The translations under genes and the position numbers were made by a program. The notes under the pieces are model-generated. The model searched no databases. It was not told where the DNA came from and worked only from the letters and a program-made list of their open reading frames with translations. From Globomyces pollinis-pini (lineage: Eukaryota; Chytridiomycota; Chytridiomycetes; Rhizophydiales; Globomycetaceae): DNA of 64,000 bases. This document shows, in pieces, positions 1-46,116 of the stretch. The DNA lies in the NCBI GenBank assembly GCA_025399215.1, contig MU621120.1, positions 1 to 64,000 of the forward strand, read 5' to 3'. Within the stretch, counting starts at the first letter, position 1; every line of letters begins with the position of its first letter.

Positions 1-918
1 ATGTTTCTGTATGGGGATAACACTTGGACAACAAACCACGATTTACCCCTACTGCTCATGGACTCGACAATTGCCTTCTTTAATGCAATGTATGGTACAA
101 CAACAACTACTACTAGTACTACTTTGGCTGCAAGGTCAACTAAATCTACCACTAATTTTTGGACTACCAGGACAATGACCAGCAACACTAATACAAGTAC
201 AGTACGTGCAACCACCACCATAATTCCATCTACCACCACTCCCACCTTAATTAGTTCCTTAATAAGCACCAGATCAGCTCCTACCACCACTATTTCAACT
301 CCAAATAGTACAATTAGATTTAGTTCTACTATCATTCGAACGATAATATCAACTACGAATCAACCAAGAACCGCATCCACAGCAACTCCAATTCGGCAAA
401 ACACTACCACTATATCCTCTACAAGGTTAAGTACTTCCACAGTTACTTTCAGAACAACAAACATGCTTTCTACTACAACGTCAAGAATTAACACTTCAGG
501 TACATCTACCAGTTCTCTTTCAACATGGCCAAGAACTACCACTACCGCTGCAATTGTACCAAACCTCACAACATCTTCTTTAAGGACTACATCAAACTTT
601 CCTACGACCATTAAAAGGTAAATTACCTATAGCTTATATTATGTAGTGTACCAACATCAGCCAACAGCCTCAGAGCAACAATGACTACAACAACAAACAA
701 TTTCCTGAGTATGTTTACTATAATAACTAATTTTTTTTCAAGGCCTTCCTACTGATAGTGTATCTGGATCTTGCGGTTCTAAGTTTCGATGTCCATCATC
801 GCAATGCTGTAGTCAGGTATTACTCTTTAATATGTTGACAACTTAGTATGGATATTGTGGAACAACAACGGACTATTGTGGTAATGGTTGTTTACCAAAT
901 TTTGGGATCTGTTGGTAA
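1..918 (+). CDS. Secreted barrel-linker-CBM18 protein, copy A (5' end outside window)
   Basis: The 3' part of the first member of a local family whose full-length copies start at 1580, 5036 and 11530. Exons 1-617, 647-708, 743-816 and 847-918 (introns 29, 34 and 30 nt) read in one frame for 274 residues. The visible protein starts inside the last barrel segment (motif FLYGDNTW). It then runs about 150 residues of Thr/Ser-rich linker, probably O-glycosylated, and ends in a hevein-type CBM18 of about 40 residues. That module has the usual eight cysteines and the aromatic run QYGYCG...DYC that binds chitin oligomers. It is almost identical to copy C over the barrel end, but the linker has diverged. 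CBM18 is recognised confidently; the barrel's activity is not known. Confidence 0.85.
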
Positions 919-1579
919 TATAAATTACAGTATATCCAATGAATATCAGCCTTTATGACAATTTTTGAGAAAGATGGCACCATAATCATTTCCCTGAGGG
1001 ACGCAATGACCAAGTAGACCGATCATAACTACAAAATACGTGAACAAAAACTCTGATGCTGTGCGCAAATAGTTCAACAGATATGAAGATTAACAAAACT
1101 ATCTCCTTTTAAAAACGGTTTTAATTTGTGTCAGGTCTTAGTATTGTACCTATTTTTCTAATCTCAAATTTCTTACTTCAATGAACATCTTATCTGTTTT
1201 AATACTTTCTTCCGATTGATTAATGAAAGTTGTTAATCTAGAATCACCTGACTTTCAAGAAACTGTCAGACTTTTAAGTCTTCCATCCGCCCTGCTAGAA
1301 ATCTGAAAGAAAATATCACTTCTATTTATGTTGAAGTACATGTAAATTATTTTATACATATCTACCGAAAGAATCCTACTATACTAAGTTTTGATGAGTT
1401 TCTATCACTGAAATTGCAGTGGTAGTGACTACTTATTGGATTATAAACCATCTGTTCAATATATTTACATTAATTCGAAAGCTTATTAGTCCATTGCAGA
1501 TTATAGTTGTTTATCTTCGTCGCGTCAATTTTTAAAGAGTTCAAACAAATTTCTATTATAATATTCTGCTTTAATTGCA
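919..1579. other. Intergenic region between copies A and B
   Basis: About 660 bases between the stop of copy A and the start of copy B with no open frame or RNA gene that I can support. The last 60 bases carry the family's CGCGTCA promoter motif, listed separately. Confidence 0.6.
1521..1527 (+). promoter_or_regulatory. CGCGTCA motif upstream of copy B
   Basis: CGCGTCA ends 52 bases before the ATG of copy B. The same 7-mer occurs at nearly the same distance before copies C and D and, reversed, before the compact copy at 14497. Its complement, TGACGCG, contains the ACGCG core bound by fungal MBF-type factors; that link is inference. Confidence 0.4.
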
Positions 1580-3245
1580 ATGAAACCATCCAAACTCATT
1601 CAATTTATGTTAACAATACCAGCGGCGACGGGAAAGTTAATTGGAGTTCAATTTGATATTGAACCACATACACTGCCGAATTGGCCTCAAGATGCAAGTA
1701 AACCAGTCAGTTCTACTACAAATGCAACATTGGACTTATTATGTAAAGCAATCGTGAACTAAATATAGGTAATGAATTGATGGACCTGTACGATATATTT
1801 CGAGATAAAACAACTCAGAATGGTTTACAGTTCCAAGCTGCCATCGCCATTCAATATCAATCAGTCTTCTTCAACAGAAATGGGAGCTTTGTAAGATTCG
1901 CAGAGACCATCCAACAAGTCACAGATAAAGTCGCCTTGATGGCATACCGAAATGTTGCGAAAAGTATATTTGATCTGGCGATTGATGAAGTACTTTATGC
2001 TGCAACAATCAAAAAGAAGGTCGTGATCCCAATTGAAGTCTTGAACGTATTACCACCGTTTATCTCCTTCTATGGTTCAACGAATGACTACCTTCAAACC
2101 CAAGTGTATGCAGAACAAAATCTAACGTTAGTTCGTCTCTTCACCAAATGATGATTGGATATGAAGGATATGATGGGACATCAATGCATCATTATACCCC
2201 CTTTCGCGAGAGAAATGCTAATGGGATGACTATGGCATATGGAAAAGAAAGAGGATTATATGTATGGGACCCACAGCAGTGGTTAAATCAAACTGAATTT
2301 AATCAATTGGTGGAGTTATGCTTCATGGGGGACATAAATACAGTGTACCTTCATGTTGGGCGGTATGTTACTTTTGAGAACGGGCAATGGAATCGACTTA
2401 GAACCGTTATTTCATTGTTTGAACAAATTGGTGTTGACACTATGTTCTTGTATGGAGACAACACTTGGACAACGAACCACGATTTGCCTCTACTGTTAAT
2501 GGATTCGACAATTGCCTTTTTTAAGGCTATGTACGGTACAGCAACAACTACTAGCACTGCCACAAAGCTAACTACAACTACCACTACTTTTATAACAAGC
2601 AGGCCACTGACCAGTACCACTACTACCACTACTGTACGACCAATTACCACTACTGCCACAATACGACCAAGTACCACAGTTACGGTGCCAGTAACTACTG
2701 CTAATAATATGACCCGACTGAGTACTACTGCTAACCCTACGACACGAGCAAGTACCACAACTACTTCTACTATTTTCAGAACGACTACTATATTTTCCAC
2801 TGCAGTTTCAAATACACAGCTGGGTGCTACTTCTATTTCAAACACTACTACCACTTCCGCTACAAGACCAAATACAGTAACTACTACTAGGTTAACAATC
2901 GCCTCTTCGACATTTAGAACCACAACCATCATCCCCAACCCGACCGTTAGGTATATACCTTTGTAATTTATATTATTTAGTGCCACAACATCAATCATCA
3001 GTTCTAGAGTATCAGCAACCACCACCACCAATAGTTTCCTGAGTAATCTACTGGACGTCTAACAAACAGGTCTTCCTACTGATGGCGTATCTGGATCTTG
3101 TGGTTCCAAATTTCGTTGCCCACCATCCCAATGCTGTAGTCAGGTATTATTCTTTGAGATTTTGATAGATTAGTATGGATATTGTGGAACTACAAGTGAC
3201 TATTGTGGAACTGGTTGCTTACCAAATTACGGAATCTGCTTATAA
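1580..3245 (+). CDS. Secreted barrel-linker-CBM18 protein, copy B
   Basis: Six exons: 1580-1742, 1769-2105, 2132-2950, 2981-3042, 3070-3143, 3174-3245 (508 aa). All five introns are 26-30 nt. The first two, 26 nt each, are supported by alignment to the compact paralogue at 13553-14497. A short hydrophobic N-terminus is a weak signal peptide. Residues about 20-165 hold strand-like segments with GVQFDIEP, VALMAYRN and VVIPIEVL. Residues about 165-310 hold YVWDP, INTVYLHVG and FLYGDNTW. A Thr-rich linker follows, then an eight-cysteine CBM18. The protein ends Cys-Leu where copies A, C and D end Cys-Trp. The DIE and MAYR motifs resemble GH18-like or other glycosidase barrels, but the order of halves looks permuted. 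No enzyme class can be assigned. Confidence 0.85.
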
Positions 3246-3508
3246 TTTCAAACCTATTGCTATAATCGTCATATTTTTTTACTTAAAAGATGAGTGTTTT
3301 GTCTGATATTGTACCGAGTTCTTTCGCGCTTTGATAAGATCCAAATAATGGTAGCAGTTTTATAATTATCCTCTTATTTTTCGATGCTACTTTAAGGGAA
3401 ATGGGTAAAGAATTGTTGAGCATCCGAAAATCTCATGCGAGGTACTCGGATAAGGTTTTCAATTTGATTCAAAATGTTGTGGATTTTTCATTAGTTCACA
3501 GGTTTTGA

Positions 3509-4769
3509 ATGAGTATTAATACTATTAATGACCCAATCGTTCTGTCTGAGATTGTGGAAAACGATCCTTCAACTGGAAATATCAAACGGAAATCAGAATT
3601 GTCTTTGTTTGATCGATACCTGACTTTATGGATATTATTAACAATGGTGCTTGGCACTTTGTTGGGAGTCTTCATTCCAGGACTGAGGAATGCCTTGGAT
3701 GTTTCAAAACTTGCCAATGTATCTCTGCCAGTGTTCATCGGTCTACTGTTGATGCTCTATCCAGTGTTTTGTAAAGTTAAATACGAGCATTTGGGCACGA
3801 TGTTGTCTCATAAGACTGCTATCCCGTATCTGTCTTTTTCAGCTCTCATGAATGTTATTGTATGTCCACTGTTTATGGTTGCATTGGCATGGGCAACTCT
3901 TTTTGACCTTCCAAATTTTAGGGAAGGTGTTATTTTGATTGGAATCGCAAGGTATGTAACAAATTAATTTTTTACTGTATAGATGTATTGCAATGGTATT
4001 GATTTGGAATGATTTGGCTGGAGGGGATGCAGAATGGGCAGCGATATTGGTAAGCATAAAAAAGTTTAATGCATAGGTTGCATGTAACAGTATCTTGCAA
4101 TTGATCCTATTTTCTCCAATGATGTACCTTTTTGTGGGGCTACTTGGTGGTGGAACACATTACATTGTAAACATCGGTTTAAGTAAGTAATTTTCGATGA
4201 TTTATTATTAAAGTTGCGAAATCTGTTGTTCTATTTTTGGGAATCCCCTTTTTTGCAGGAATTTTGACTCGCGTTGTTGTAGTGAACGTTATTGGAAAAC
4301 CATTAAGGTGGTATCATGAAAAATTTATTCCCTATATTTCTCCACTAGCACCTATCGGTTTAACATTCACTATTTTAGTTATGTTCGGTTTACAGGTAGA
4401 TCACTATATGTTAACTGATAGGGAAAACTAATTGTTTCACAATTTGGATTCTGTCTACGAGTTACTATTCCACTTCTTATCTATTTTCCAGCTACTTTTT
4501 TATTCACAATGCTTCTGTGTCGTCTCATTGGGATTACCTATGAAGTAGCGTTAGCAATAAGCTTCACCAGTGCATCCAATAACTTTGAATTGGCTATGGC
4601 AGTGTCAATACCCACATTTGGTATCGATTCACAACAATCATTAGCAACCTCTATTGGCCCTTTAATTGAAGTTCCCGTTATGTTGGCTATAGTGAATGTA
4701 TGTCCACTGGTGAAGAAATATTACCTGATTAAAACATCACCAGAAGAAATCCCACTTAGTGAAGCATGA
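3509..4769 (+). CDS. ACR3: ACR3-type arsenite efflux transporter
   Basis: Five exons: 3509-3951, 3983-4049, 4077-4182, 4214-4395, 4422-4769 (381 aa); introns 26-31 nt. It is an integral plasma-membrane (or vacuolar) carrier of the bile acid:Na+ symporter superfamily that exports arsenite/antimonite. Family hallmarks are present: ARCIAMVLIWNDLAGGD, with the essential cysteine, crossing the first splice junction; GIPFFAGILTR; and SASNNFELAMAVS followed by GPLIEVPVM near the C-terminus. About ten hydrophobic segments are visible and the length is typical. It lies between copies B and C of the CBM18 family with no obvious functional link. Confidence 0.93.
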
Positions 4770-4974
4770 TGCCCTTGATATATTTTATTGTTATATAGCT
4801 CTAACGCCTTGTAAATACAACTTTTCTCATAGCAGCCTTATTTCATTTATTATTATAAGTTAATCTTGATGGCACTAATTCAAGATAGTAATATGTTTAT
4901 TTGTTAACATTTAAATTAATTCTTGTTAAATTCATTAATTTACACGCTGATGCATGCATGGTCTGTTTGTTTAG

Positions 4975-4987
4975 ATCGCGTCACGTT
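4975..4987 (+). promoter_or_regulatory. Conserved promoter box upstream of copy C
   Basis: ATCGCGTCACGTT is identical to the box at 11469-11481 upstream of copy D, and both lie about 50 bases before the ATG. The stretch from the box to the ATG is conserved between the two genes, including a pyrimidine-rich segment ending TAACTTAATCCAA just before ATG. Confidence 0.5.
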
Positions 4988-5035
4988 AAACAAGTGTTAA
5001 TGACTTTTCCATTTATATCTTTTAACTTAATCCAA

Positions 5036-7336
5036 ATGCAATTACCCAGATTTGCTATATTAATGCTAGCAATATCAGCGGTATCATGCAAGCTACTAGG
5101 AGTTCAATTTGATATTGAACCACATACACTGCCGAATTGGCCTCAAGATGCAAGTAAACCAGTCAGTTCTACTACAAATGCAACATTGGACTTATTATGT
5201 AAAGCAATCGTGAACTAAATATAGGTAATGAATTAATGGACCTGTACGATATATTTCGAGATAAAACAGCTCAGAATGGTTTACAGTTTCAAGCTGCCAT
5301 CGCCATTCAATATCAATCAGTCTTCTTCAACAGAAATGGAAGCTTTGTAAGATTCGCAGAGACCATCCAACAAGTCACAGATAAAGTCGCATTGATGGCA
5401 TACCGAAATGTTGCGAAAAGTATATTTGATCTGGCGATTGATGAAGTACTCTATGCTGCGACAATCAAAAAGAAGGTCGTGATCCCAATTGAAGTCTTGA
5501 ATGTATTACCTCCGTTCATCTCTTTCTATGGTTCAACCAATGATTATATGCAAAGTCAAGTGTATGCAGAACAAAATCTAATGTTAGTTCGTCTCTTCAC
5601 CAAATGATGATTGGATATGACGGATATGATGGGACATCAATTCATCATTTCACTCCATATCGCGAGAGAAACCCCGAAGGGATGACTATGGCGTTTGGCC
5701 AAGAAAGAGGAATGTACGTATGGGACCCAGAACAATGGCGAAACCAAACGGAATTCAACGAATTGCTAGAGCTATGCTTCATGGGGGACATAAATACAGT
5801 CTACCTTCATGTTGGGCGATATATCACATTTAATAATGGACAATGGAATCGACTTAGAACCGTCATTTCATTACTTGAACAGATTGGTGTTGACACTATG
5901 TTTCTGTATGGGGATAACACTTGGACAACAAACCACGATTTACCCCTACTGCTCATGGACTCGACAATTGCCTTCTATGACGCACTGTATGGTACGACAA
6001 CAACTACTAGCACTACTTCGACTGCAAAATTAACCGTCGTATCTAGCACACTTGCCTCCACGTTGAACAGTATTACCACTACAAAACTTCCTACTACTAT
6101 CACGTCAATCGCCAGCACACCTACAACAATAATCATTTCCACTACGACTGCTAATTTACCAGGTACTGTCATTTCCTCTAGCACGACACGAGCAAGCACC
6201 ACTAGTTTGAACGCTACTACGTCAATAGTTACTTTTGCGTCTCCTAGTACCACACGCGCAAGTACCGCTACTATGAATACTCTTACTTCACTAGCCACAA
6301 GTTTGCTTCCTAAAACCACACTCACAAGTATAATTACCCCTCCACGAAGCACCACTGTGCCTTCTAGTACCACAAGTCGAAGTGTCACTACTGTGAATAC
6401 TACTTCTTCAGTAAGTATCATTGTGACATCTAGTACCACACGCGCAGCCACCACTACTATGAATACTATCACTTCACTGAGAACCAGTTTTCCTTCTAGT
6501 ACCACACTTGCAAGTGCTATTACTACTCCGCCAAACACTACTATGCCTTCTAGTACCACAAGTCGAAGTGTCACTACTGCGAATGCTACTTCATTAAGCG
6601 TCACTGTGGTTTCCAGCACCACACGCGCAGGCACCACTACTTTTAACACTACTATCACCACAGTCAAAGCCGCTACCAGTACTACTGCTTCGAATAACAC
6701 CACCATACGACCAAGCACTACCACAACTATTGCTGCTATATCGCTAAGCACAAAAACAAGTACGACTACTTCAGTAACCATCAATTCTACTACTGTTGCA
6801 ACACCATTAGTTACTACTGTTGCACAACTGAAGACTACCACCTTAATCGCTAGCAGTACCATCACTGTCAGACCCATCCCCACCAGTACACCGATCAGCA
6901 CCACTGCAGTAACGAAAACTTCAACTTCTATTGCTACTTTCAATCCAATTGCAACTACAGCTGTTTCATCTTCCAATTCTTTGAGTACCACTAGTGGCCC
7001 TAACGTCGCAACAACATCAGCATTTAGAACTTCAACCATTATTGTCACCACCAGCGTTAGGTATAAATTTCTTTATAACATGTAGCGTGTCAAGCTCGAA
7101 AGCGTCAACAACAACCACAAATAGTTTCCTGAGTACGTCTAAAACAGAGCTAACAATCAGGTCTTCCTACTGACGGTATATCTGGATCTTGTGGTTCAAA
7201 GTTTCGTTGTTCGTCGACCGAATGTTGTAGTCAGGTATTATTCTTTGGAATTTTGACAGATTAGTATGGTTATTGTGGAACGACCATTGACTATTGTGGC
7301 AAAGGTTGCTTACCAAATTATGGGATCTGTTGGTAA
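5036..7336 (+). CDS. Secreted barrel-linker-CBM18 protein, copy C (longest linker)
   Basis: Six exons: 5036-5198, 5225-5561, 5588-7060, 7086-7132, 7161-7234, 7265-7336 (721 aa); introns 25-30 nt. ATG 5036 is chosen because it gives a clear signal peptide (MQLPRFAILMLAISAVSC). The open frame extends further upstream, but that part would precede the signal. Domain order matches copy B: barrel part with QFDIEP, MAYRN and IPIEVL, second part with YVWDPEQW and FLYGDNTW, a linker of about 360 Thr/Ser-rich residues, and CBM18. The barrel exons are nearly identical to copies A, B and D, and the last two exons plus 3' UTR are nearly identical to copy D. The linker is unique. A secreted chitin-binding, heavily O-glycosylated product is likely; catalysis is unproven. 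Confidence 0.86.
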
Positions 7337-7949
7337 TATCAAATAAAGTGTTTTAGGTTTTATTTAGTAAACAATGGTGTTTTTAATAATTGACAGTTTT
7401 TAATGGTCAGTAGTATAGTTTTTTTTACTCGAACGAACTTCAAACTCGGACTAAGAATTGAGTTCGTTCAAAAAGTTAACTCTATGTCGATTACAGTATT
7501 AGTGGCGATTAGTATGGTATCAAGTTAATATGTGCTGTCAGTTTTGTTTTAATCCGATCTATTTTGGATTCAGTTTAATCTATTCAAGACTTCCTGGTCA
7601 CAAAACCCAACTGACTCGGTATCATCTAAAGTTTACAGACTATAAAAGTTTCTAATTAGACATATCAAGAAAGAGATGCTTTTTATAGCAACAAACTTTC
7701 AATACTTTGACGGCTGAGATTATCGATACACGTTAAAATGATATTATCCAAGTGCTTTTAACTGCTTTATTTTTAGACACGGTGCATCTAGGAAGAAGCA
7801 GTTTAATTAGTCAAATTATTATGCGATTGAACAATCAAATTCATGATCTGGAGTAAATGAAAATATTCGATCCGTTTTGTTATCAAGTCCCATTCATACA
7901 TTTCGCGGTTTCAAAACTTTTCAATTTAAATTTTCAAGATTTTTAAACT
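7337..7949. other. Intergenic region, copy C to ENA-type ATPase
   Basis: The first about 110 bases are the copy C 3' UTR, nearly identical to that after copy D (13393-13455). The remainder is AT-rich with no supported gene; it should hold the ATPase promoter. Confidence 0.6.
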
Positions 7950-10859
7950 ATGGAGATAACAGTAGAGGTTGCACCGTTGAATAACTCATTCGACGATGTA
8001 AAGACCCATTTTTGGACTATTCAAGAAACTTTGGACCATTTTAACGTCAAAGCTAACTCAGGACTTTCCGCTGACCAAGTAACTGCAAACAAACTACGTT
8101 TCGGAGAAAATAAACTAGAAGGTGATAGTGGACCTTCCATCTGGAAAGTCTTATTTGATAACATCTTTAACTATATGAACGCTGTTTTAATTGGAGCTTT
8201 GATTGTTTCTTTGGTTGTTCTAGATTGGATTAAAGTTGGGGTCTTATTATTGGTTATCATAACCAACTCTGGTATTGGATTTATGCAAGAGTATAAGTCT
8301 GAAAAGACTATGGATGCGTTACGTCAAATGTCTTCCCCCACTGCCAAAGTCCTACGAGATGGCATGTTACAAGAAATCCCATCATCCCAAGTAGTACCTG
8401 GTGATATACTAAGTCTTGAAACTGGCGCGATATGTCCTGCTGATTTACGGTTGATTGATGCTGTAAACTTGGAAACTGATGAAGCTTTCTTAACTGGAGA
8501 GTCACTTCCGATTCCCAAAAATACTAGAGCACTTACTCGTGGTGAAGAAGAGCCATCTGTAGGAGACCGTGTGAATTTAGCATACATGAACTCCAAAATT
8601 GTCAAAGGTCGTGGTACCGGAGTGGTCATTAGTATTGCTTTTAAAACAGAGGTTGGAAAAATTGCAACCTTGGTGTCTGAAGGTGAAAAGAAGCAGAAAA
8701 AAACTCCATTGATGATTACACTTGATCGTTTAATGATTTTTTGTGTCTTGGCTGCCGTTGTTTTGGGTATTTTCGTTTTTGCTATCGAAAAGTTTCAATG
8801 GTCGACTGACACTTTCTTGTATGCTATTTCTGTAGGCATCGCTCTTTTGCCCGAAGGACTGCCTGCCGTTATAACTGTTGTCCTCGCTCTTGGATTAAGT
8901 CGTATGAGTAAACAAAAAGCGTTGGTTCGTAAGTTGCCTGCGATGGAAGCTGTTGGTCAAGTTACTAATATTTGCTCTGACAAAACTGGGACACTAACTG
9001 AAGGTAAAATGGTGGCCAAATTTGCTTGTTTCGGGGGTATGATGTACAAAATTTCTGGTGAGCCTATTGCACCTGTAGGCAAAGTGTTTCAACTTAACGG
9101 AGAAGAAGAAATTGAAATCAGTAATGATATGGTGGATTCACGCGATGAATTAAAATCGGGGCTTTTGGTTGCTTCACTATGTACCACATCAAACTTGTTC
9201 ATTGACAAGAAAACGAACGAATGGAAGGCTACTGGGGCTCCAACAGAAATTGCACTCCAAGTGTTGGCTGCGAAAATGAGTTTCTTGAAAGCTGATCTAT
9301 TGGGAAAAGATTACGAATTCATCCATGAGTATCCTTTTGATTCATCCGTGAAACGAATGACCACTGTTTACAAGCATGGGGAGGAGTTTATTTACTTTTC
9401 AAAAGGTGCTTTGGATATGATTATATCTCAATGCCATACTTATTCTGAAAATGGGCAGAATCATCCTATGACTCCAGAAAAAACAAAATCTATCATCGAA
9501 ATTATGGAAGAATTTGCTGGAAAAGGAATGAGAGTATTGGCTATGGCTACAAAACACACAAAAATTCCTCATGTTGAAGATATGGTACGTCAAGATGTTG
9601 AAAAGGATATGAACTTTGTGGGACTCGTTGCTATTTACGATCCACCTCGAGCAGAATCACTTCCTTCTGTTCAAGAATGTCGTACAGCTGGAATTGTTGT
9701 TCACATGGCTACAGGGGATCACCCAAAAACAGCTGAAGCAATTGCACGAGAAGTTGGTATTCTTTTACCTACCGACCCATCAGGATTGGTTATGATCGCA
9801 TCTCATTTTGATCAAATGACTGATAATGAAATTGACCAGTTGGAGAAACTACCACGTGTTCTTGCTCGATGTGCTCCAGAATCTAAGGTCCGTCTTATTG
9901 GAGCTTTACACCGACGGGGAAAGTATGTAGCAATGACTGGTGATGGGGTGAATGACGCGCCTGCAGTCAAACAAGCAGATATTGGTATTGCTATGGGGCT
10001 TACAGGATCTGAAGTAACAAAGCAAGCTTCTGCGATAACTTTAACTGATGATAATTTCCGATCAATTCTTTCCGCTGTTCGTGAAGGTCGGTGTATCTTT
10101 ACAAATATCACTCAAATTGCATTGCATTTACTTTCAGGAAATGTATCTGAAGTTATTGTGCTTATATTTGGTCTTGCTATTCGTGATAGCGAAGGTCATA
10201 CTGTTTTCCCAATGTCGGCTATCCAAATATTATGGTTGAATATGATCACGTCGTCACCTGTTGCCCTTGCACTCGGAGTAGAAGCTCCTGCTTCTGATAT
10301 CATGCAACATCCTCCTCGTAAAGCTGGATCGTCGATTATTAATGCTCAAACATTAACTGATCTGTTCTTTTACGGATTCTGGCTTGGAAGTTTCTCATTG
10401 GGTACATTTATTGCCTCGCTCCATTATGATGTTGGAATACATAATATTCCTCCTCGCTGTGGTAAAGAATTTACTGAAGGTGTATGCGAACCAGTCTATG
10501 CTGCTAGGGCTCTTTCATTCTACTCTCTATCGTTACTGATACTTGTCCATGGATTCAACTGCCGTCATCTACGTCTTTCTTCTTTTCGTAAGGATCAAGT
10601 CCAGAATTACTACTTATGGGGTGCTGTAGCTTTTGGAATTGCAATGACAGTCCCAACTGCATTTATTCCACAAGTGAATGTCTACGTGTTTGAACAATCA
10701 AGCTTTACTCCTGGATGGTGGATTATTCTTTTGGCTCAAGTGGTGGTGTTTTTGATTATATCAGAGATTTATAAATTCTTCAAACGCAAATTTTATGGAA
10801 TTCCTCAAGCTCCTAATCATGAACAAGTACCATTAGTTGTGACTGTTGAAAACCCGTGA
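7950..10859 (+). CDS. ENA1: ENA-type (P-IID) sodium-pumping P-type ATPase
   Basis: A single 969-aa open frame with no introns, exceptional for this window. ENA pumps extrude Na+ (or K+) across the plasma membrane in fungi. Visible in order: the N-terminal cation-ATPase domain; the subfamily signature GFMQEYKSEKTMDALRQMSS; actuator motif TGES; TM4 with LLPEGLPAV; phosphorylation motif CSDKTGTLTEGK; nucleotide-binding region; hinge TGDGVNDAPAVKQADIG; and six C-terminal transmembrane segments. It is somewhat shorter than yeast ENA1 (about 1090 aa). The IID assignment rests on the QEYKSEKTMD signature. The lack of introns could mean recent acquisition or retroposition; codon usage looks like that of its neighbours by eye. 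Confidence 0.92.
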   Translation: MEITVEVAPLNNSFDDVKTHFWTIQETLDHFNVKANSGLSADQVTANKLRFGENKLEGDSGPSIWKVLFDNIFNYMNAVLIGALIVSLVVLDWIKVGVLLLVIITNSGIGFMQEYKSEKTMDALRQMSSPTAKVLRDGMLQEIPSSQVVPGDILSLETGAICPADLRLIDAVNLETDEAFLTGESLPIPKNTRALTRGEEEPSVGDRVNLAYMNSKIVKGRGTGVVISIAFKTEVGKIATLVSEGEKKQKKTPLMITLDRLMIFCVLAAVVLGIFVFAIEKFQWSTDTFLYAISVGIALLPEGLPAVITVVLALGLSRMSKQKALVRKLPAMEAVGQVTNICSDKTGTLTEGKMVAKFACFGGMMYKISGEPIAPVGKVFQLNGEEEIEISNDMVDSRDELKSGLLVASLCTTSNLFIDKKTNEWKATGAPTEIALQVLAAKMSFLKADLLGKDYEFIHEYPFDSSVKRMTTVYKHGEEFIYFSKGALDMIISQCHTYSENGQNHPMTPEKTKSIIEIMEEFAGKGMRVLAMATKHTKIPHVEDMVRQDVEKDMNFVGLVAIYDPPRAESLPSVQECRTAGIVVHMATGDHPKTAEAIAREVGILLPTDPSGLVMIASHFDQMTDNEIDQLEKLPRVLARCAPESKVRLIGALHRRGKYVAMTGDGVNDAPAVKQADIGIAMGLTGSEVTKQASAITLTDDNFRSILSAVREGRCIFTNITQIALHLLSGNVSEVIVLIFGLAIRDSEGHTVFPMSAIQILWLNMITSSPVALALGVEAPASDIMQHPPRKAGSSIINAQTLTDLFFYGFWLGSFSLGTFIASLHYDVGIHNIPPRCGKEFTEGVCEPVYAARALSFYSLSLLILVHGFNCRHLRLSSFRKDQVQNYYLWGAVAFGIAMTVPTAFIPQVNVYVFEQSSFTPGWWIILLAQVVVFLIISEIYKFFKRKFYGIPQAPNHEQVPLVVTVENP

Positions 10860-11529
10860 AATAAATTGAAAGTATTGCTTCGATATGATTGTTAGATTGA
10901 TTGAGATTAATGAAGTTTGATGGAATTATCAATCTACTACAACTAAGATGATTCCATGTAGTTGATTCAGTTATACTTATAATAAAAGGATTTGGGGGCA
11001 TTTCGTCGGAAGCTCAAAAGAGATTGACTCAAGATCGAGAGATGCACCATCATTAGTTTTCACAATGACTTCCTTATCGGATTGATCCAGGTCAAAATCT
11101 GGTTCGTAAAGTCTTGAATTTTTCACCGATTTTGGTATTAATTATTAATGATTCAATTGTATAGTTGTTCAACATAAATTTTCGCCTTCACTGGTAAACA
11201 AATGGGCTTTGTAGTAACCTTTTGGATACGTATATTATATTTAAGGGTTTAGCCACAAACTTGCATATGAGCATTGTCGATTTATATTGGAACATTATTG
11301 AACTTCTGGTTCTATACCGTTTATGACCATGGTGGAATTCGCATCAACAAGCTTCACTACGTGACGGATTCAATTGAATACAAGGTGTTAAAAGATAAAT
11401 TTCTGTATATTTGAAATACTATCATTTGATTCATTCATTTACACGTAGATGCATGGTATGTTGTTTGGATCGCGTCACGTTCAACAAAATTTAAAGACTT
11501 TTCCACTTCTATCTTTTAACTTAATCCAA
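10860..11529. other. Intergenic region, ATPase to copy D
   Basis: About 670 bases without a supported gene. The last 80 bases align with the region just upstream of copy C. Confidence 0.6.
11469..11481 (+). promoter_or_regulatory. Conserved promoter box upstream of copy D
   Basis: ATCGCGTCACGTT, identical to the box before copy C and at the same spacing from the ATG. Confidence 0.5.
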
Positions 11530-13392
11530 ATGAGACTTCACAGATTGTCTATGTTGATGTTAGCATCAGTGGTATCCTGTAAGCTAATTGGTGTTCAATT
11601 TGATATTGAACCACATACACTTCCAAATTGGCCTCAAGATGCAAGTAAACCAATCAGTTCTACTACAAATGCAACATTGGACTTATTATGTAAACCAATC
11701 GTGAATTAACTCTAGGTAATGAATTGATGGACTTGTACGATATATTTCGAGATAAAACGGCTCAGAATGGTTTACAGTTTCAAGCTGCCATTGCCATTCA
11801 ATATCAGTCAGTCTTTTTCAACAGAAATGGAAGCTTTGTAAATTTGGCACAGACTATCCAACAAGTCACAGATAAAGTCGCATTGATGGCATACCGAAAT
11901 GTTGCAAAAAGTATATTTGATCTGGCGATTGATGAAGTACTTTATGCTGCAACGATCAAAAAGAAGGTCGTAATCCCAATCGAGGTCTTGAACGTATTAC
12001 CTCCATTCATCTCTTTCTATGGTTCAACCAATGATTATATGCAAAGTCAAGTGTATGCAGAACAAAATCTAACGTTAGTTCATCGCTCCACCAAATGATG
12101 ATTGGATATGACGGATATGATGGGACATCAATTCATCATTTCACTCCATATCGCGAGAGAAACCCCGAAGGGATGACGATGGCGTTTGGCCGAGAAAGAG
12201 GAATGTACGTATGGGACCCAGAACAATGGCGAAACCAAACTGAATTTAACCAATTAGTGGAGCTATGCTTCATGGGGGACATAAATACTGTGTATCTTCA
12301 TGTTGGGCGATATATTACCTTTAACAATGGACAATGGAGTCGGCTTAGAACTGTCATTTCATTACTTGAACAGATTGGCGTCGATACTATGTTCTTGTAC
12401 GGGGATAGCACCTGGACAATAAACCACGATTTACCCCTACTGCTAATGGACTCAACAATTGCTTTTTTAAATGCAATGTATGGTACAACAACAACTACTG
12501 GTACTACTTCGACTGCAAAACCTACCACACTTTCCTCCATGCTGAATAGTATCACTAACAATCCGCTTAGCTTTACAGCTTCTTTTAAAACCCCAATCCC
12601 TTCGACTCAATCAAGCACCACTTTCAGTACTATCAGTTCAACGTCCACTACAATGGCTAAAATTTCTACCACTACAAAGACTGTTATTCCTACCACTAAA
12701 CTAGTTACCACTACAAAGGCGACTCTTCCTACACCTACCAAGACTGCAGTTTCTACCATTAAATTTCTCACAACTACAAAGACTGTTATTCCTACCACTA
12801 AACTTCTTACCAATACAAAGACCGTTATTCCGACCACAAAACTACTTACCACCACAAAGTCGACTCTTCCTACCACTACCAAGGCTGCAGTTTCTACCAC
12901 TAAACTTCTTACCACTTTAAAGATGTCTGTTTCAACCACCAGATTTGCTACCACAGCTACTATCCCAAAGCTAATCAGTACTACAGCAGTAATTAAAGCT
13001 ACACTGGCTATTGCTATTGGAACCACATCTTCCAAGCCTGTTATAAGTACAACACCAGGGTTGAGAACGTCAACCATGATCGCAACTACTCCCGTTAGGT
13101 AAAACGATTCCTGTTTTTATAACCTCTAGTGCACGAACAACAACTATCAGCTCGAAGGTGTCAACAACAACCACAAATAGTTTCCTGAGTATGTCTAAAA
13201 TAGAGATAACAAGCAGGTCTTCCTACTGATGGGGTATCTGGATCTTGTGGTTCAAAGTTTCGTTGTTCGTCGACCGAATGTTGTAGTCAGGTATTATTCT
13301 TTGGAATTTTGACAGATTAGTATGGTTATTGTGGAACGACCATTGACTATTGTGGCAAAGGTTGTTTACCAAATTATGGGATCTGTTGGTAA
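11530..13392 (+). CDS. Secreted barrel-linker-CBM18 protein, copy D
   Basis: Six exons: 11530-11689, 11716-12052, 12079-13098, 13130-13188, 13217-13290, 13321-13392 (573 aa); introns 26-31 nt. ATG 11530 begins a signal peptide (MRLHRLSMLMLASVVSC). It has the same order as copies B and C: barrel, Thr-rich linker, CBM18. The linker contains imperfect repeats of the form TTKxVIPTTKLLTT, unlike those of the other copies, so linkers evolve by their own repeat expansion. One visible substitution, GDSTWTINHD for GDNTWTTNHD, changes the family's most constant motif. Confidence 0.86.
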
Positions 13393-16434: not shown

Positions 16435-19412
16435 TTATTCATGTTTACCATCACGTTTAGCCCCCAAATCAGTCGACTCAATGCCATCACTTAACTCCGG
16501 AATCTAAACTATAAATAAAGAAAAATATACCTTGAATAATTTACTCTGTAGTTTAAGTATCATCTTGACAATTTCAATGACAGCTCCGGATTGATCGGCA
16601 GTGCTGTTCTTGTTGTATAGGATATTGGGGGCTATGACCGTTGCTAAGTTTTCAAGATGCATTTTGTTGCCGCCAGATGGGTCAGCAGGGTCACCAGAGT
16701 AAGAAGCAACTTCGGCAAAGAAGCGCACCAGGACACAGAGTAGATCGATATTGGGTTTGGGTAGGAGACATAGGATAAGGTGAAGTACTGTTTCGCGATC
16801 CTGCACATCTACTTCTGTGACGGTTAGTGAATATGGTTACTTGGTATACACAGGAATACATCATATAGTTGTGTGGTGAGTAATGGTTCAGGTAAATCAC
16901 GTAAAAACTTTTTCATTAGTGCTGCTATCTGAATTGCATTTTCTTGGCGAAGATCAATATGTAAGGGATCCATATCGATTTGTTCACATAAATCTTTCAA
17001 ACGGCGGATATTCCCGTTTTTTCTAAATATACCCTCGATTGTAAGGTCTATCGGTTAGTTTTGAACGTTACCTTGGCGCTTGAGTTGCGAAATACATTCT
17101 TGCATTAGATATGGAATACGAAGTGTTCCGGGTCCAAACCCGAAAACAGAATCCGTTCCGTATTGTTCCACAAGTATATCCAACGGTGTTCCAAATGTTC
17201 GATCTAGAATAAACGAAGTTGAAATTACGTATTTTCTTCTTTTCACTCTTTTTAAACATTTTACTCCATATACTGGATTTCTTTCCATCAACAATTCGCA
17301 GCAGTTTATCAACCGTGAAATAGGAACCTAGGTACTTTGACAAAGAGGCTGCCGCATTTTGGCGAATGGCAAACAAATTGAGCGCGGTAGCATCACTCAG
17401 GTACATACTTTTACCATCGTGCCCATCCTGCTCCACTTTCCACACCGTTTGCTCATGACGTAGGTTTTTAAGGACAGGTGGAACATGCTCCGTTTCCTCA
17501 TTATCGAAAAACAATTCTTCAGCATCACCCTTCTGGAACGGATCTGGAATGGGCGCGACTGATTCTCGAGGATTGGGGTCCTGAATCGGCGCTAATAACT
17601 GCGATTCATCAATTTGTAGAATCACAAAAAGCCTATTGAGAGCGCTACATAGGAACGTCAGATATCTAGAGTGAATGTCATAAATCATTACTGTTTCAGT
17701 TCCCCTAGTTTCTTAATTCCGGTCACAGATAACGGTGTTCGATGTGAAGGACAATAAAGTGACAAGGTATTGGGATCCACAAAGGTCATGTCCAAATCCA
17801 AGAGTGCGACTTGGCAATTGGAACACTTCAAGCAGGATCGATGCCATTTGTAATCACCGAATTGAAAGCATTCTTCTTCAATTACGGATTTACATAATGT
17901 ACATGAATCATTCCTGGCAGAGAAACTGAGATGGGTTGAGAGTGTTTCGGCACCTTCGCTTCGAATAGATTGGAGTTGTTCCAGGAAATATGTAACGGCA
18001 TTCGCTTGCCCATGTATTTGTTCCTACGGTTAATGAAAGTGTTGTTACAAGGCGCAGTGATGCGGCCAACGCCTTTCGAATAACAATTTTCAAAACGTGT
18101 GCTAAAGAAGTGACGAGCTGAATCATATCCTTAGTTGCTGAAGGTTTCTCGGTTGATTCTTGTTTAGAAGAAAGTAAAGAAAACAAGGATACGATTTTTT
18201 TCACCAATTGTTTAGGTTCTTTAGATGAAGATAGGTGTTGTGGATCAGAAAATGAATTGAGTTTATCGTCAATGTCCTGGAGGGATGAAAAGAGAACGTC
18301 GATGTGTGAAATAAGCCTGTGAGCGTGAATGGCACCGTTCATATATCCATCGTTCGTGAAATGTATCAACATTTCTGAGATAGATTCTGCTGCTGATTCT
18401 TCAAATGTAGATAATATTTGTAGTATCTTTTCTACTTTCTCCACCATCACTCTTTGTTTTTCTACTTCGACTAGATATTAAAACTATTTGTAAACCATCC
18501 GGATCTTTTGGAACGGTGTCTTCTATTTGTCTAAAGTTTTCTGTGGATAATCTTATATTCCATAACTAGGTTTAGTTTACTTGATGTACTTTATAAATCA
18601 TATAACAGCATGGGTGCCACTGAGTAGCTTCACCATTTCCTAATTTTAGGCTGTGAAAGCATTACCTGTGCCAGTGCCTATGTGAATTAATCCATCGGTT
18701 TTTGTACCTGATATTAGTTAGAAGTTGATACCTATATTTGTATTAGTACGTCAATAAAAAGGATGTTAAATTAAGCAACTTGAAGACCAAGTTCTGAGTG
18801 TAATATCGCTAAATTATCCAATATAGAAAAGTCCAAGTAAATGATATAAAGTATAGAAAATAATCAATCAAGTGTGTTGAAGCAATGGAAGAATATACCT
18901 TTCGTAGTTTCGACAAAGTTCTTTAAGACGGCAGTATGACAACCCCCACATTTGGAAGCATATAGAATAGAGTAATGCTGACCACAATAAACTTGACCAT
19001 CCTTTTCGTAATACGAGTCATGTTGTTTAAAGACGACACCGCAAACGGAGCAGCTAAGAGTGAGAGAGGTATTAGATACGAAAAGTGTTCCATATGATAT
19101 TTCTGGGTATTGACACGAATGTAAGGTCCTCTGAGAGCCTGGTTGCATCTAGCGCAAATGAGTTCCAAACGTTTGAAGTAATCAATTTCACAGTATATGG
19201 AAGTGACACCGTCAGTAGTGACGGGGAAGAACTTATCGGCGACAATTTGATTACAATCCTTTTGTTAGTGGGGGAAGAGAGAATACTAGACAACGAAAGC
19301 ATTCCAGGTGATAGTGAGCTTTAACAGCTCTAACGAATTGCCCGTCGATTCTGAGGTTGCATTTAGCGCATAGTTTGAATCTTTTATTCAGATCCTGTGG
19401 GTTGTTTTCCAT
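16435..19412 (-). CDS. LRG1: LIM-domain Rho GTPase-activating protein (LRG1-like)
   Basis: Thirteen exons on the minus strand: 19287-19412, 19080-19258, 18899-19053, 18666-18707, 18590-18639, 18496-18565, 18049-18470, 17692-18023, 17229-17665, 17072-17203, 16841-17047, 16531-16814, 16435-16503 (834 aa), all phases consistent. Lrg1 switches off Rho1 and so tunes wall glucan synthesis and cell fusion. N-terminal LIM zinc fingers start CAKCNLRIDG and CARCNQALRG, then a third (CSVCGVVF...) with WHPCCYMIYKLWN. Another LIM (CTLCKSVIEEECF...) lies mid-protein. The RhoGAP domain shows FGTPLDILV, the arginine finger in GIFRKNGNIRRL, and NLATVIAPNIL. The 42-nt exon at 18666-18707 and the adjacent 191-nt intron are the least certain. 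ATG 19412 is the first downstream of the NUP133 promoter region. Confidence 0.88.
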
Positions 19413-19556: not shown

Positions 19557-22500
19557 ATGTTTACACCAAAGAGCAAGACCAAAGGAAGGAGAGCTGCACC
19601 CACTCCAGCTACTATCACTCCTAATACTGCCATTACTAGTACTAATGCTACTAGTAGTAATAATCCGATATTCTTGCATTCAAAGTCACTGGTAGTTTCG
19701 GTCTTGTCTCCACTGCCATCGCCTCTCTCAAGTATATTCTTGTTCTAATCCTAACTCATTTAGGTATTTATTCTGAATCCTAACTGATCCTAGGTATTTA
19801 TAATCCTAACTCACTCTAGGTATCTATTATTCTAATTATCCAGGTCAAAATCTGGCCCATTCACAGGCAATTCTCAACCAACTCTCTGGATTGATCACTA
19901 TCAACTCATCCAATCATGCTGCCGTTTGGAATTACTCCAAACCCAACTCCCTCCCTCTATCAATCTTTCCGTTGCCTTCTACTGTTCCGATACTCGCCAC
20001 TTTCATTCACCTTAGACTATATACAGCATTCTTGGCTGTTAATTCCATAGGTTCATGTCGATTTTGGCATAATATCCTCGATCCGGACACCTTTGTCGAA
20101 TTAGCCATTCCATTTTCCTCTCCTCCCTCTTTCCTGATACACTGTGAGGTACTTATATTGTTCTACTTCACTCGACATCCTCTATCCATATTTACTACAC
20201 TTAAATTTACAATAGCAATAAGTCCCACAAAACGCTAAACTTATCTCACACTTTACTAAACTATAGAACTATGGAGTTATCATTGGTTTAGTATCTGGTG
20301 AACTAATACGTATCAAATCAGAATCTCTTGTCACAAATTCTACCGAATTGACTTTCAGCTATATCTTAAGACCTAAGAATTGGTTGTCACTCTTATCAAA
20401 TTCAAATTCTGTTTTGAAATCTCAGAATGATTTCTTAATTGCTGCCGTACCTGGTTCAAACGATCAAAGTCGTATTTCAAGGTTTTTTCTCGAATCGTTA
20501 ACTTATTTTGTTAGGTTTCCAACCACTTTACTGCTAACTGTTTTCTTTTAGATATGTCTATATTCTAACCAGCAAAACATTACAAAAATGGTCACTATTT
20601 AACAACCCAGAGACTGTAAAGCTAAGATACATGCTAAACATAGTTGGATTCAGAAATAGATTTGTCAACTTTATTCTACAACCACTTTGGGTTCAATTGC
20701 AAAGTCCTTGATCTCGACTATTCAAAGTATGCTTTGTGCGATTGATTATTAGAGATGATTTCGTGGTTTTATTGGTAAAGAGTGAGCTGAGAAAATCCGA
20801 ATACTTTTTGTTGGTTTGCAAAGAGGTTTCTGATGGGCTTATCATTGATTTTTGCAAACCGATTGTTCATCAGTATAATGATGATTCCAATGTACATTTT
20901 TAGTTTATTGATGTACCTAGGTATGTACTATTGGTTTGATGATATTAGGTACCATGTATTGCATTATGTAACGGTGGACCATTCATCTATATTGCTTTCA
21001 ATGATCTCGTCATGATTACCAGTATATCAAAAGGTAAACATATCATACCAACAATTAGATCGCCAATTCGAAGAACTAATCCCGTTCAAAACTAAAGATG
21101 TGATTGGGTTTGGAGTTGACAAGTACCGATTTGGAGTTCTTCAAGACTCTAAAAGCAAAGCCACTATATGCTGTGCAAGTGTGGGTGTTTTAGAAGTTGA
21201 ATTTGATTCTACCAAATTAAGTGTATCACAATATGCAGATCCAACTCATACGTTCCAAACTGTATCTAATATCCATTAATATGTAGAAACAACAGGAAAC
21301 CTTATCCACAAATCTGGAGCAATATGTTTTCTTTGGTACCGCTCTCAACAATACAGTATTTACATACAAATATTTATTCTAGTTTAACAATCCGATTCAA
21401 TTCAATCTGTCAAATTTCCAAGGCGATTTAAATACACCATGTATACATTTGTCGAAGTCAATTTTGGAAGCTACCAATCCGAACTTACAACATTCGTTGG
21501 ACGGATCTGCATCTTTATCTGAACGCGCATTCCGCTTACGCGAGCTTGTGTATATCTTGAATGACAACAAGCTCATTGATCAGGTAATGAAGTTGATATT
21601 GATGGCAGATTTCTGAATCTACACTTTACCGACTCTTTTTTGATGCAGAAAAGATTGCAGTGATTTCAGCATTGTGGAAACATCATAATACCGTTTTGGG
21701 AATGGATTCTGGGAATGATTTATTGACCACGGTTGCAGCAGAATGCACACGTAATCATGATATCCGTGATTTTGTATATGAATCTGTATTTATGAGTTGG
21801 TTTTGATAATTAGGTGAATGACATCCCGAAATTGTTGATGAAGGTACATGGATATGTGTTGCCTTTAAAGTCGCGTGGAGTGACGTTATCGGATTCCCAG
21901 CTTGTGATTGAAAGTTCTCGGTTATTTACTGTATTTTTATTTCATTTTCATTGTTAGATTGTGTTTGAGGCTGCGATTCAGTTCCGAGTTGTTGAAGGGG
22001 CCAAGTATCATATTGATACACGACACTGGTTAGTTGAGCCATTTACAGCACATACTGATTTGCTTGATATTCTACAAACGCAATTTGAAATTTTGGCCCA
22101 AGTGGTAGGATTAGTGAACGCTAGCGATGATATTGATATGGGTGAGGATAGTGTTGGGTTGTTGATTGATCTTGGTAAACATTTGGTACAGAGCTTCCAC
22201 GACCGAATGGGATACTATCAAAAGTATGATTTTATTGTTAATGTGGTAGGATCAATCAGAATCAGACTGACATTGGGAAATTGAGTGAACGATACAAGGT
22301 GTTGTTGGAAAATCATATTGTCAAAAGTCTAGGTTTGGTTTTTTGTATATATATTAATTGCTTTATAGTTGATAATGGAGTTGTATCAGCCGCATTTGAA
22401 TTAGCCGAGCAATTTCAGGAATTAACAATTTTGGTGAATTTAAGTTTAACATCCAAGAATCCACAAATTTATATTGACCGATATATAAAGAAATTCGGGA

Positions 22501-23660
22501 ATGGATTTGCGACCTTATTGTTCCAGACGTATTTCGACAAACAGCAGTATGGGCATCTAATGGATCAATGTGGGCCAGCATCAGCATATCTTGATGAGTT
22601 TTTGGACCAACCAGAGTTGGCATATTTGATGTGGGTGCAGGATTTGAAGATGAAACGGTATGGGAATGCTTCGAAAGGATTGTGGGAATTGGCGGAAAAG
22701 AATCGCGGGATTGATAACCAACAGGTATTCTTGTTCATTTGTTTTTAATTTTTCCAAGTTGATTGTATCGTTATCAAAGTTAGCCTATATGCAAGCTACA
22801 CCTGATTATGATTCAGAAGCCTATCTGACCACTGGTATATTCTTGTCGTTTTGATTGTGTAGTATCTAGTTTTGATATTGCTCAACGTTTTCTTTTGATC
22901 CAAAAACATCTCAAATCGCTGTTTAATGATTATATGCAAGAAAATCACTTGACCTCTCAATCACTTGATACAACTGTTCGTAAACTCATGACCGCATTTT
23001 ACCCCAATCTTAAGCGAAAGGATGTTATGTATCTATTTATCCAGTATTATGTGAAGGAGTTGGTAAAAGGGGTCAAGATTCCATCAAAAGTGTGCTTGGA
23101 ATTGATTCTGGGAATGGATATGCAAGATAACCCATACTTTGATGCTTGGGAACTATGGATTGAGTTTTCAAAGTATTTGCCTGATGGTGATATGACTGCT
23201 ATTGAAGAAGAGTTTTATTTGAATCGGATTTGGAGAGCTGCTTGGCTGCATGATGAGTATGGTTTTTTCATTTTGATTTTTCTAGTTGGGTATCGTTACA
23301 TGAACAATTAAGTTTGTTGGGTGATGATGAAATTAATACTGTTATCCGTACCACCAATATCTTTCATTTCATCAGTCAAATTCGTAATATCTTGCTTTTT
23401 TAATTGATTTTTCAATAGATGATTTGAACGAGGATCACGTCATTCCTACTCCATCTTCTATTCAACTTTCATTGCCACCTACATTCTCACAATTGTATGA
23501 GCCCTTGACGGAATCGCAGATCAAGGCTTTAGGTACGGTTTTCAAGGGCGAGCAAGATCGCTTGCAAGGGTTGGTGACTGAATCAAAGTTGGATACGTTT
23601 CATAGTCACATTATTGGTTTGTTAAGACAAGACGATGTTGATATGATGGAATTAAGTTAA
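19557..23660 (+). CDS. NUP133: Nucleoporin Nup133
   Basis: Nineteen exons (1102 aa): 19557-19731, 19844-20148, 20267-20481, 20552-20615, 20644-20726, 20753-20891, 20949-21033, 21059-21261, 21287-21355, 21383-21583, 21609-21773, 21814-21903, 21958-22223, 22250-22332, 22369-22724, 22759-22834, 22863-23256, 23286-23383, 23419-23660. Phases close at every junction. Nup133 is a stalk subunit of the nuclear pore Y-complex. A disordered N-terminus is followed by a beta-propeller with LITINSSNHAAVWNY, NYGVIIGLVSGELIRI and VPCIALCNGGPFIYIAF. The alpha-helical domain has KDVIGFGVDKYRFGVL-like and FFGTALNNTFNNPIQFNL segments. The length fits the family. Three introns are arrays of complete intron units. 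The junctions at 20149-20266 and 21904-21957 are the least certain. Confidence 0.85.
19732..19843 (+). repeat. Array of four contiguous intron units in NUP133
   Basis: Four GT...AG units abut with no exon between them: 19732-19763 (32 nt), 19764-19793 (30), 19794-19819 (26), 19820-19843 (24). The first three share a CCTAACT branch-like motif and units 2-4 begin GTATTTAT or GTATCTAT, so they look like tandem duplicates. The frame joins the outer exons exactly (A plus GT). Confidence 0.8.
20482..20551 (+). repeat. Two contiguous intron units in NUP133
   Basis: Units 20482-20514 (33 nt, GTTAAC branch-like) and 20515-20551 (37 nt, GCTAAC) abut exactly. The flanking exons join in frame (SRIS-RYVYILTSK). 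Confidence 0.75.
20892..20948 (+). repeat. Two contiguous intron units in NUP133
   Basis: Units 20892-20920 (29 nt) and 20921-20948 (28 nt) abut exactly between exons that join in phase 0 (DDSN-VPCIAL). Confidence 0.7.
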
Positions 23661-35274: not shown

Positions 35275-36348
35275 ATGAACTTTAAATATTTAACTGCTTT
35301 TGTATTATCTCAACTATGTGTACATGCTGCTGTAACTATCACAAAGACTGTTACTCAAGATTGCAGTGCTACTCCTTTATCAAACTTGGCTAATGGTGGT
35401 GCAACCAGCGGTGCAACTGGTGGAGCAGTTGATACATCTAAATGTGCCAAGGATCGTAAGGACAGCAAGACTGCTGGTCCAGCTTTTGCCATTTTTGATA
35501 ACCAACCGTGTGGACCAATCAACATTACCGGTCCATGTACTAGAGATGATGAATGTGGATCCTCATGTTGCGATGGAAAGAAATGCCGTGCTCCAGATGC
35601 ATTGAAGGGAGCTGAAACTTGTCGAAGTGGTTTAGCTCCAGATTTCACCAATGGATTGAAATTTGTAAACAAAGGAGCGAATGGTGGAGCTGGAAATAAT
35701 GCAGGTGCCAATGCTGGTAATGGAAATGTTGGAGCAGCTGCCCCTGCAACTGGTGGAGCAGTTGATACATCTAAATGTGCCAAGGATCGTAAGGATAGCA
35801 AGACTGCTGGTCCTGCTTTTGCCATCTTTGATAACCAACCGTGTGGACCAATCAATATTACCGGTCCATGTACTAGAGATGATGAATGTGGATCCTCATG
35901 TTGTGACGGTAAGAAATGTCGTGCTCCAGACGCATTGAAGGGAGCTGAAACTTGTCGAAGTGGTTTGGCTCCAGATTTCACCAATGGATTGAAATTTGTA
36001 AACAAAGGAGGTAATGGTGGAGCTGGAAATGGTGCCGGTGCCAATGCTGGTAATGGAAACGTTGGAGCAGCTGCCCCTGCAACTGGTGGAGCAGTTGATA
36101 CATCTAAATGTGCCAAAGATCGTAAGGATAGCAAGACTGCTGGTCCAGCTTTCGCCATCTTTGATAACCAACCGTGTGGACCAATCAATATTACCGGTCC
36201 ATGTACTAGAGACGATGAATGTGGATCCTCATGTTGTGATGGAAAGAAATGCCGTGCTCCAGATGCATTGAAGGGAGCTGAAACTTGTCGAAGTGGTTTA
36301 GCTCCAGATTTCACCAATGGATTGAAATTTGTAAAGAAAGGTCAATAA
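35275..36348 (+). CDS. Secreted Cys-rich protein with three 111-aa repeats
   Basis: A single exon of 357 aa. A signal peptide (MNFKYLTAFVLSQLCVHA) is followed by a short unique stretch and three almost identical repeats. Each repeat has eight cysteines in the pattern SKC, QPC, GPC, DEC, SSCC, KKC, ETC, including CTRDDECGSSCCDGKKC, which looks knottin-like. Gly/Ala/Asn-rich spacers separate them, and each repeat has a potential N-glycosylation site (NIT). Function unknown; a wall-associated or effector-like protein is a guess. The third repeat ends the protein right after FVKKGQ. Confidence 0.85.
   Translation: MNFKYLTAFVLSQLCVHAAVTITKTVTQDCSATPLSNLANGGATSGATGGAVDTSKCAKDRKDSKTAGPAFAIFDNQPCGPINITGPCTRDDECGSSCCDGKKCRAPDALKGAETCRSGLAPDFTNGLKFVNKGANGGAGNNAGANAGNGNVGAAAPATGGAVDTSKCAKDRKDSKTAGPAFAIFDNQPCGPINITGPCTRDDECGSSCCDGKKCRAPDALKGAETCRSGLAPDFTNGLKFVNKGGNGGAGNGAGANAGNGNVGAAAPATGGAVDTSKCAKDRKDSKTAGPAFAIFDNQPCGPINITGPCTRDDECGSSCCDGKKCRAPDALKGAETCRSGLAPDFTNGLKFVKKGQ
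35416..36345 (+). repeat. 333-bp in-frame tandem repeat, three units
   Basis: Units begin at about 35416, 35749 and 36082, exactly 333 bp apart (the last is incomplete at its 3' spacer). Differences are mostly third-position changes, pointing to recent amplification or homogenisation. Confidence 0.9.
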
Positions 36349-46004: not shown

Positions 46005-46040
46005 GCTTTTCTTTACAATAAACATACATGGGTTACTAAT

Positions 46041-46092: not shown

Positions 46093-46116
46093 GGACCTCC
46101 AATCCATTATACTGTC

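Follow-up and report, generated by a model that had tools for sequence, protein, structure and literature searches.

The nucleoporin gene NUP133 occupies positions 19557 to 23660 on the forward strand of the 64,000-nucleotide stretch of Globomyces pollinis-pini DNA analyzed here (the window), and at 19732-19843 its reading frame is interrupted by a run of consecutive GT...AG units of 32, 30, 26 and 24 nt. A sequence-only reading of the window had described these units as four complete introns placed back to back, without any exon between them, and as recent tandem duplicates of one intron. Are they separate introns or parts of a single one, how did they come to abut, and is the arrangement peculiar to this gene?

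Whole-genome pattern searches covered the assembly of 18.55 Mb in 459 contigs, and a sample of 264 kb, which was not random, comprised the window plus 200 kb (the first 40 kb each of contigs C1, C2, C3, C5 and C7). A small self-trained gene model, built from the sequence itself (coding periodicity, donor, branch, acceptor and length), called 98 genes with 652 introns in this sample. The introns showed a median length of 29 nt (quartiles 27 to 31, 1st percentile 23, 5th percentile 24), the lengths of the short ones thinned out near 40 nt, and the branch was close to YTAAY and mostly 6 to 12 nt upstream of the intron end. The NUP133 units are, as claimed, normal-sized by this measure, the 24-nt unit being short yet within range. 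For comparison between strains we used Globomyces sp. JEL0801, whose proteins were 94% identical to the sodium ATPase of the window and 97% identical (predicted protein HDV02_005967) to NUP133. The NUP133 product matched the nucleoporin C-terminal domain of Pfam (PF03177, 44.5 bits, cut-off 25.9); the same Pfam search matched no N-terminal propeller.

NUP133 carries 23 intron units in the model, and at three of its intron positions the units form abutting arrays. The coordinates and lengths originally given for the first array proved exact. Unit 1 (19732-19763, 32 nt, branch CCTAACT) stands at the 48th percentile of 582 short introns, unit 2 (19764-19793, 30 nt) at the 57th, unit 3 (19794-19819, 26 nt) at the 73rd and unit 4 (19820-19843, 24 nt, branch TCTAATT) at the 57th, all on the forward strand. 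CCTAACT is indeed present in units 1 to 3; the best branches of the model are ACTGATC in unit 2 and ACTCACT in unit 3, in each case just downstream of that motif. The starts are alike as had been noticed, GTATTTAT in units 2 and 3 and GTATCTAT in unit 4, and both unit 2 and unit 4 resemble unit 3. The array spans the break in the frame exactly, for once all 112 nt are removed the NUP133 frame is joined in phase 1. Kept singly, units 1, 2 and 3 each add an in-frame stop (that of unit 3 at its end) while unit 4 stays open, and for this reason its intron status is less certain than that of the other three; it could alternatively be an 8-codon exon.

Further introns of the window show the same arrangement. 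Two abutting introns of 33 and 37 nt lie at 20482-20551 of NUP133 and two of 29 and 28 nt at 20892-20948 (forward strand), and the predicted JEL0801 protein is identical across both junctions. On the reverse strand, a gene named by eye as LIM/RhoGAP-like has abutting introns of 24 and 30 nt at 18678-18731, which close a 221-nt intervening stretch (18678-18898) on its 3' side; the first 167 nt of this stretch do not tile into units and the whole is perhaps a decayed array. NUP133 also contains, at 20149-20266 (forward strand), a 118-nt intron that is far above the genome norm and consistent with the JEL0801 protein, and that could be resolved into short units neither by tiling nor by nesting.

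Other features of the window were noted, the protein descriptions being by eye. Positions 1-13300 hold tandem paralogous genes for a protein whose head is conserved and whose long tails are rich in Thr/Ser; some introns are identical between the copies and the tails bear long antisense ORFs. A Cys-rich, secreted-looking protein with three near-identical repeats is encoded at 35275-36348 (forward strand), three adjacent ORFs of similar membrane-protein-like, receptor-like sequence lie at 45009-48426 (forward strand), and a run of 50 N at 61062-61111, either an assembly gap or a masked stretch, falls within a gene for a repeat-rich, secreted-looking protein.

When the gene model was allowed to place introns side by side, 24 abutting junctions appeared among 676 introns in the 264-kb sample, so that internal exons of zero length (24) stood beside 12 of 1 to 10 nt. 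These junctions formed 13 arrays. In 11 of them all units were of 40 nt or less (seven arrays of 2 units, two of 4 and two of 5), and these 11, eight of them outside the window, were found among 595 short-intron positions. Array lengths ranged from 53 to 162 nt, and the largest array found consisted of six units of 27 nt in near-perfect repeat (locus L030, contig C68). Extrapolation from the eight arrays in 200 kb of this non-random sample gives roughly 700 in the genome.

The excess was also seen without gene models, by counting distances from the end of one unit to the start of the next with a unit scoring learned from the introns of the model. At gap 0 there were 22 cases, and gaps 1 to 39 had 3.4 on average (maximum 8); with the window excluded the figures were 15 and 2.8. 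In reversed sequence gap 0 gave 8 cases and the other gaps 3 to 15. AGGT as such was not enriched (1577 occurrences, against 1314 to 1665 for AG and GT at gaps 1 to 5). Chains of at least three abutting good units occurred three times in the sample, NUP133 being one of them, and were absent from reversed sequence and from 10 shuffles. Two-unit chains numbered 16 at a strict threshold against 9 in reversed sequence, and 21 against 27 at a looser one, at which single units were more numerous in reversed sequence too; since such chains also occur in the control, some single two-unit arrays may be due to chance.

In the whole genome, the pattern TAGGTATN{15,28}TAGGTATN{15,28}TAG (TAGGTAT..TAGGTAT..TAG) gave 63 matches at 52 separate places against 7 in the reversed control. 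A pattern for the junction gave 54 at gap 0 (control 37) and 16 at a 3-nt gap (control 32); CTAATATTAGAATTAGATGGTAAATAG, which surfaced in the gap-control pattern, lies within a dispersed near-identical repeat at C14:120549, C61:13633, C199:31582 and C200:22146. The strictest pattern, CTAAC..AGGTAT..CTAAC, showed no enrichment (6 matches, with 7 in the control), and in our opinion it is under-powered because it requires the same branch form twice. Abutting AG/GT units thus recur above chance both in the sample (22 against 3.4 per gap) and in the genome (63 against 7), and the objection, raised together with the original reading, that AG/GT junctions might be no commoner than chance fails on these counts. 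Six of the 52 places were fetched, five of them picked for near-identical units, and all six showed an array within a gene model, although that of L032 was weak. Four further loci came from the strict pattern: L004 and L007 have the array inside a gene model, while L005 and L006 do not and were rejected as arrays.

Conserved proteins allowed a view of what must leave the mRNA (the slash marks the position of the array). In a Rab8 gene a 5-unit, 160-nt array lies inside RTITT/AYYRGAMG and the joined protein aligns there ungapped with Rab8A (5szi). In a CLK kinase gene a 5-unit, 138-nt array lies inside FLHDL/GLIHTDLKPEN, ungapped there with CLK2 (3nr9), and in a Ran gene a 3-unit, 92-nt array with two identical units lies inside KLVL/VGDGGTGKTT, ungapped with Ran (1wa5). 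Because the three proteins are ungapped at these sites the whole array must be removed in each case, so that at the protein level no nucleotide is kept between the AG and the GT of neighboring introns. For the FabG-like protein of L030 the alignment with carbonyl reductase 4 starts only just after the array, which leaves that junction without a protein test. The L007 locus (contig C319) encodes an RlmN-like radical SAM RNA methyltransferase (314 bits, cut-off 290), a gene that in this fungal genome bears introns including a 3-unit array. The protein of L033 had no match in the PDB at a cut-off of 1e-25 and its name, WD40, was given by eye, as were those of other array genes (Dopey, RBM22, SLC38 and F-box).

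The signals carried by the units bear on how they are spliced. The genome-wide pattern yielded 111 distinct units, selected on their TAG/GTAT borders and spacing regardless of branch sites. A branch score above 0 was found in 82% of them, in 86% of 584 solitary introns and in 30% of shuffled units, and a score above 2 in 19%, 36% and 5%, respectively, by which the array units are somewhat weaker than solitary introns. Judged by their sequence, the units have the features of U2-type introns: a GT donor, a spaced branch, an AG acceptor and a typical length. Among the units of diverged pairs 58 of 74 still scored above 0, and the survival of these signals while the rest of the unit drifted suggests that each unit is recognized on its own. 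Unit-by-unit splicing is thus the most likely mode of removal, and every complete splicing route, in any order, leads to the same mRNA.

Introns called as long ones were examined as well. The model without abutting introns gave 64 calls of at least 46 nt, of which 5 tile into complete units at a strict threshold (100 shuffles gave 0.02 on average) and 59 do not. None of the 59 could be decomposed into nested introns; as the units of the arrays tile end to end, we rejected a reading of them as stwintrons (spliceosomal twin introns). Some of the untiled calls are arrays in which one unit is weak, and many others look like bridging errors of the gene model; because of the latter we dropped the idea that all long calls are decayed arrays. 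Removal of longer stretches in one step is possible, since the 118-nt NUP133 intron, which does not tile, fits the JEL0801 protein.

We then compared units with each other for traces of their origin. Sixty adjacent unit pairs were available, from the 63 genome-wide matches minus three overlapping end variants, pairs of one array not being independent. Nineteen of these, at 16 places, surpassed 99% of between-locus pairs in similarity (expected number 0.6), and the other 41 did not exceed that level; the series runs from identical units (the Ran array, contig C168; 32 nt) to unrecognizable ones. In NUP133, the share of 17,095 random intron pairs that are as alike is 0.28% for units 1 and 2, 0.39% for 1 and 3, 0.02% for 2 and 3, 0.56% for 3 and 4, 4% for 2 and 4 and 18% for 1 and 4, the last two likenesses being unremarkable. 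Tandem duplication is therefore supported by unit similarity for about a third of the tested pairs and for most NUP133 unit pairs. The original claim of recent tandem duplicates holds as far as duplication goes; "recent" fits NUP133 only loosely, because no likeness can be detected between units 1 and 4 and fresher copies exist elsewhere.

The ends of the arrays carry direct repeats, with a mean of 3.1 nt in 21 arrays, 10 of which came from pattern searches, against 1.4 nt in 585 solitary introns (Mann-Whitney p 1.7e-4); the repeat was of at least 4 nt in 8 of the 21 and in 47 of the 585. The 11 sample arrays alone gave a mean of 2.5 nt, with at least 4 nt in 3 of them (p 0.005). The longest repeat was 9 nt (L030), and that of the first NUP133 array is only 2 nt. 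Such repeats suggest in-register duplication through AG/GT, yet the insertion of an intron with duplication of its target site would leave the same trace. In appearance the copied units are introns, although the first one may have derived from exon at loci where the first donor recurs in exon 2, as with the 9 nt of L030.

Among the explanations that compete with tandem copying of separately spliced introns, chance has the least to recommend it. Random GT and AG in A+T-rich introns could make abutting units, and both the failure of the strictest pattern to show enrichment and the two-unit chains in reversed sequence agree with this; however, with the gap-0 excess, the genome counts of 63 and 7, the absence of chains of at least three units from every control and the tiling of 5 of 64 long calls, we regard it as scarcely credible in general and as already refuted for arrays of at least three units. 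A different doubt concerns NUP133 itself, where the stretch might be only partly intron, with unit 4 (or unit 1) a coding exon beside a three-unit array. Besides the open frame of unit 4, a profile of four homologs can be cited for it, as the N-terminal part of NUP133 scored 9.7 bits when the whole array was taken out and 12.3 bits when unit 4 was left in, differences of this order being small. The predicted JEL0801 protein also, by its letters, codes through unit 1 and skips units 2 to 4 together, and because the translation of unit 1 recurs in it this unit seems common to both strains. Yet the JEL0801 reading fits the homologs worst (7.2 bits), and we take unit 4 as an intron because its branch site is strong and correctly spaced, and because it resembles unit 3 and is absent from the JEL0801 protein. 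We therefore think it quite unlikely that the stretch is partly coding; of the four introns originally proposed, units 1 to 3 stand and unit 4 is retained with less certainty.

Each array might also be one long intron containing a tandem repeat, whose first GT pairs with the last AG while the rest is ignored. There is precedent in a fission yeast gene with an intron across four 24-bp AGGT duplicates, as cited in PMC4974935, and the JEL0801 NUP133 protein reads as if units 2 to 4 had left together; near-perfect arrays such as the 6 x 27 nt of L030 and the untiled 118-nt intron are compatible with it as well. A passive repeat, however, would be expected to lose branch sites and unit length, whereas diverged units keep both (58 of 74 branch sites, lengths of 24 to 35 nt), and single introns of intermediate size are scarce: lengths thin out near 40 nt, none of 46 to 56 nt was called in the sample, the long calls begin at 57 nt, twice a unit, and one 54-nt intron was called, in L028. 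On balance this explanation seems unlikely to us, if the most serious of those considered. Somewhat less probable is that new units came from elsewhere, by reverse splicing beside existing introns or through introner-like transposons leaving a target-site repeat. Direct repeats across array ends and the 41 of 60 neighboring pairs without similarity at the 99% level fit this, but the 19 pairs that are local copies do not, and a dispersed intron family was not seen among the 619 sampled introns. In 164,068 between-gene intron pairs, six had a similarity of at least 0.7, all of them in the window paralogs, and four others reached 0.6; above 0.5 the remaining sampled pairs formed no cluster larger than 3. 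As near-identical introns at unrelated loci were not found among the sampled introns, a reading of the units as introners was rejected.

We thus consider it probable, with good though not full confidence, that 19732-19843 consists of complete spliceosomal micro-introns arrayed in tandem, copied in place and spliced unit-wise, and that the genome probably holds several hundred such arrays. The process would start from an ordinary intron of about 29 nt that is copied in place and in register, the AG/GT at both of its ends providing a direct repeat on which slippage during replication or unequal exchange could act, and each added AG/GT junction would ease the next copy. The mRNA would be unchanged by a copy, because a GT...AG unit is just one more intron beside a zero-length exon. 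The spliceosome, used to introns of about 23 to 37 nt, would then remove the units one at a time, and any order and any pairing of the GT of one unit with the AG of the same or a later one would yield the same mRNA. With time the units would drift apart, while selection would hold donor, branch site and acceptor. On a wider view, which we favor by a modest degree, this would be a living, genome-wide multiplication of introns in place: AG/GT-mediated copies, separately spliced and invisible in the mRNA, whose growth and shrinkage would be nearly neutral and whose zero-length exons could later give rise to new exons or splice choices.

Where introns come from and how they multiply has been asked for a long time, with few cases caught, and here multiplication is perhaps seen in progress. 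The arrays form a range with identical copies at one end and unrelated units at the other, which would allow the process to be dated, followed from strain to strain and put to the test in RNA. Whether a spliceosome can handle up to six abutting 27-nt introns without exon between them bears on the minimal flanking sequence needed for splicing. Gene finders may also misread arrays, as appears to be the case at the start of the predicted JEL0801 NUP133 protein, and therefore wrong predictions may exist among the proteins of these fungi.

In the open-access literature, to which our search was largely confined, we found no description of complete spliceosomal introns abutting in arrays. Introners, or introner-like elements, are introns that multiply within a genome and disperse to new sites. 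The arrays share with them the multiplication of introns, but here the copies stay beside their parent and form no dispersed family in the sample. To our knowledge, nested stwintrons are the nearest fungal case. Stwintrons of ascomycete fungi comprise more than one U2 intron at one intron position, removed by consecutive splicing, and some are similar in sequence (PMC7138796, PMC8469720). Several introns at one position is thus a feature common to both systems; in stwintrons, however, the inner intron splits the outer one and the order of splicing is forced, whereas here complete units, up to six, stand side by side and any order would work. Recursive splicing at zero-length exons, reported for Drosophila and rat alpha-tropomyosin, likewise uses an AG/GT junction, which is acceptor and then donor around an exon of zero length (PMC5126111). 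There it subdivides long introns, whereas in the arrays complete introns of about 29 nt follow one another directly, part of them local copies. Introns are also known to be gained when segments bordered by AGGT are duplicated in tandem, with cases from Hellsten et al., from potato RdRp and from fission yeast (Zhu and Niu); one fission yeast intron spans four 24-bp AGGT copies (PMC4974935). Tandem copies, AGGT unit borders and an unchanged mRNA are shared with the arrays. In that model a copied exon gives one new intron (PMC4974935), whereas the arrays appear to be made by copying existing introns, each copy with normal intron signals and length, at many loci. If RNA shows unit-wise splicing, there would be a strong case that they represent more than a variant of known intron duplication.
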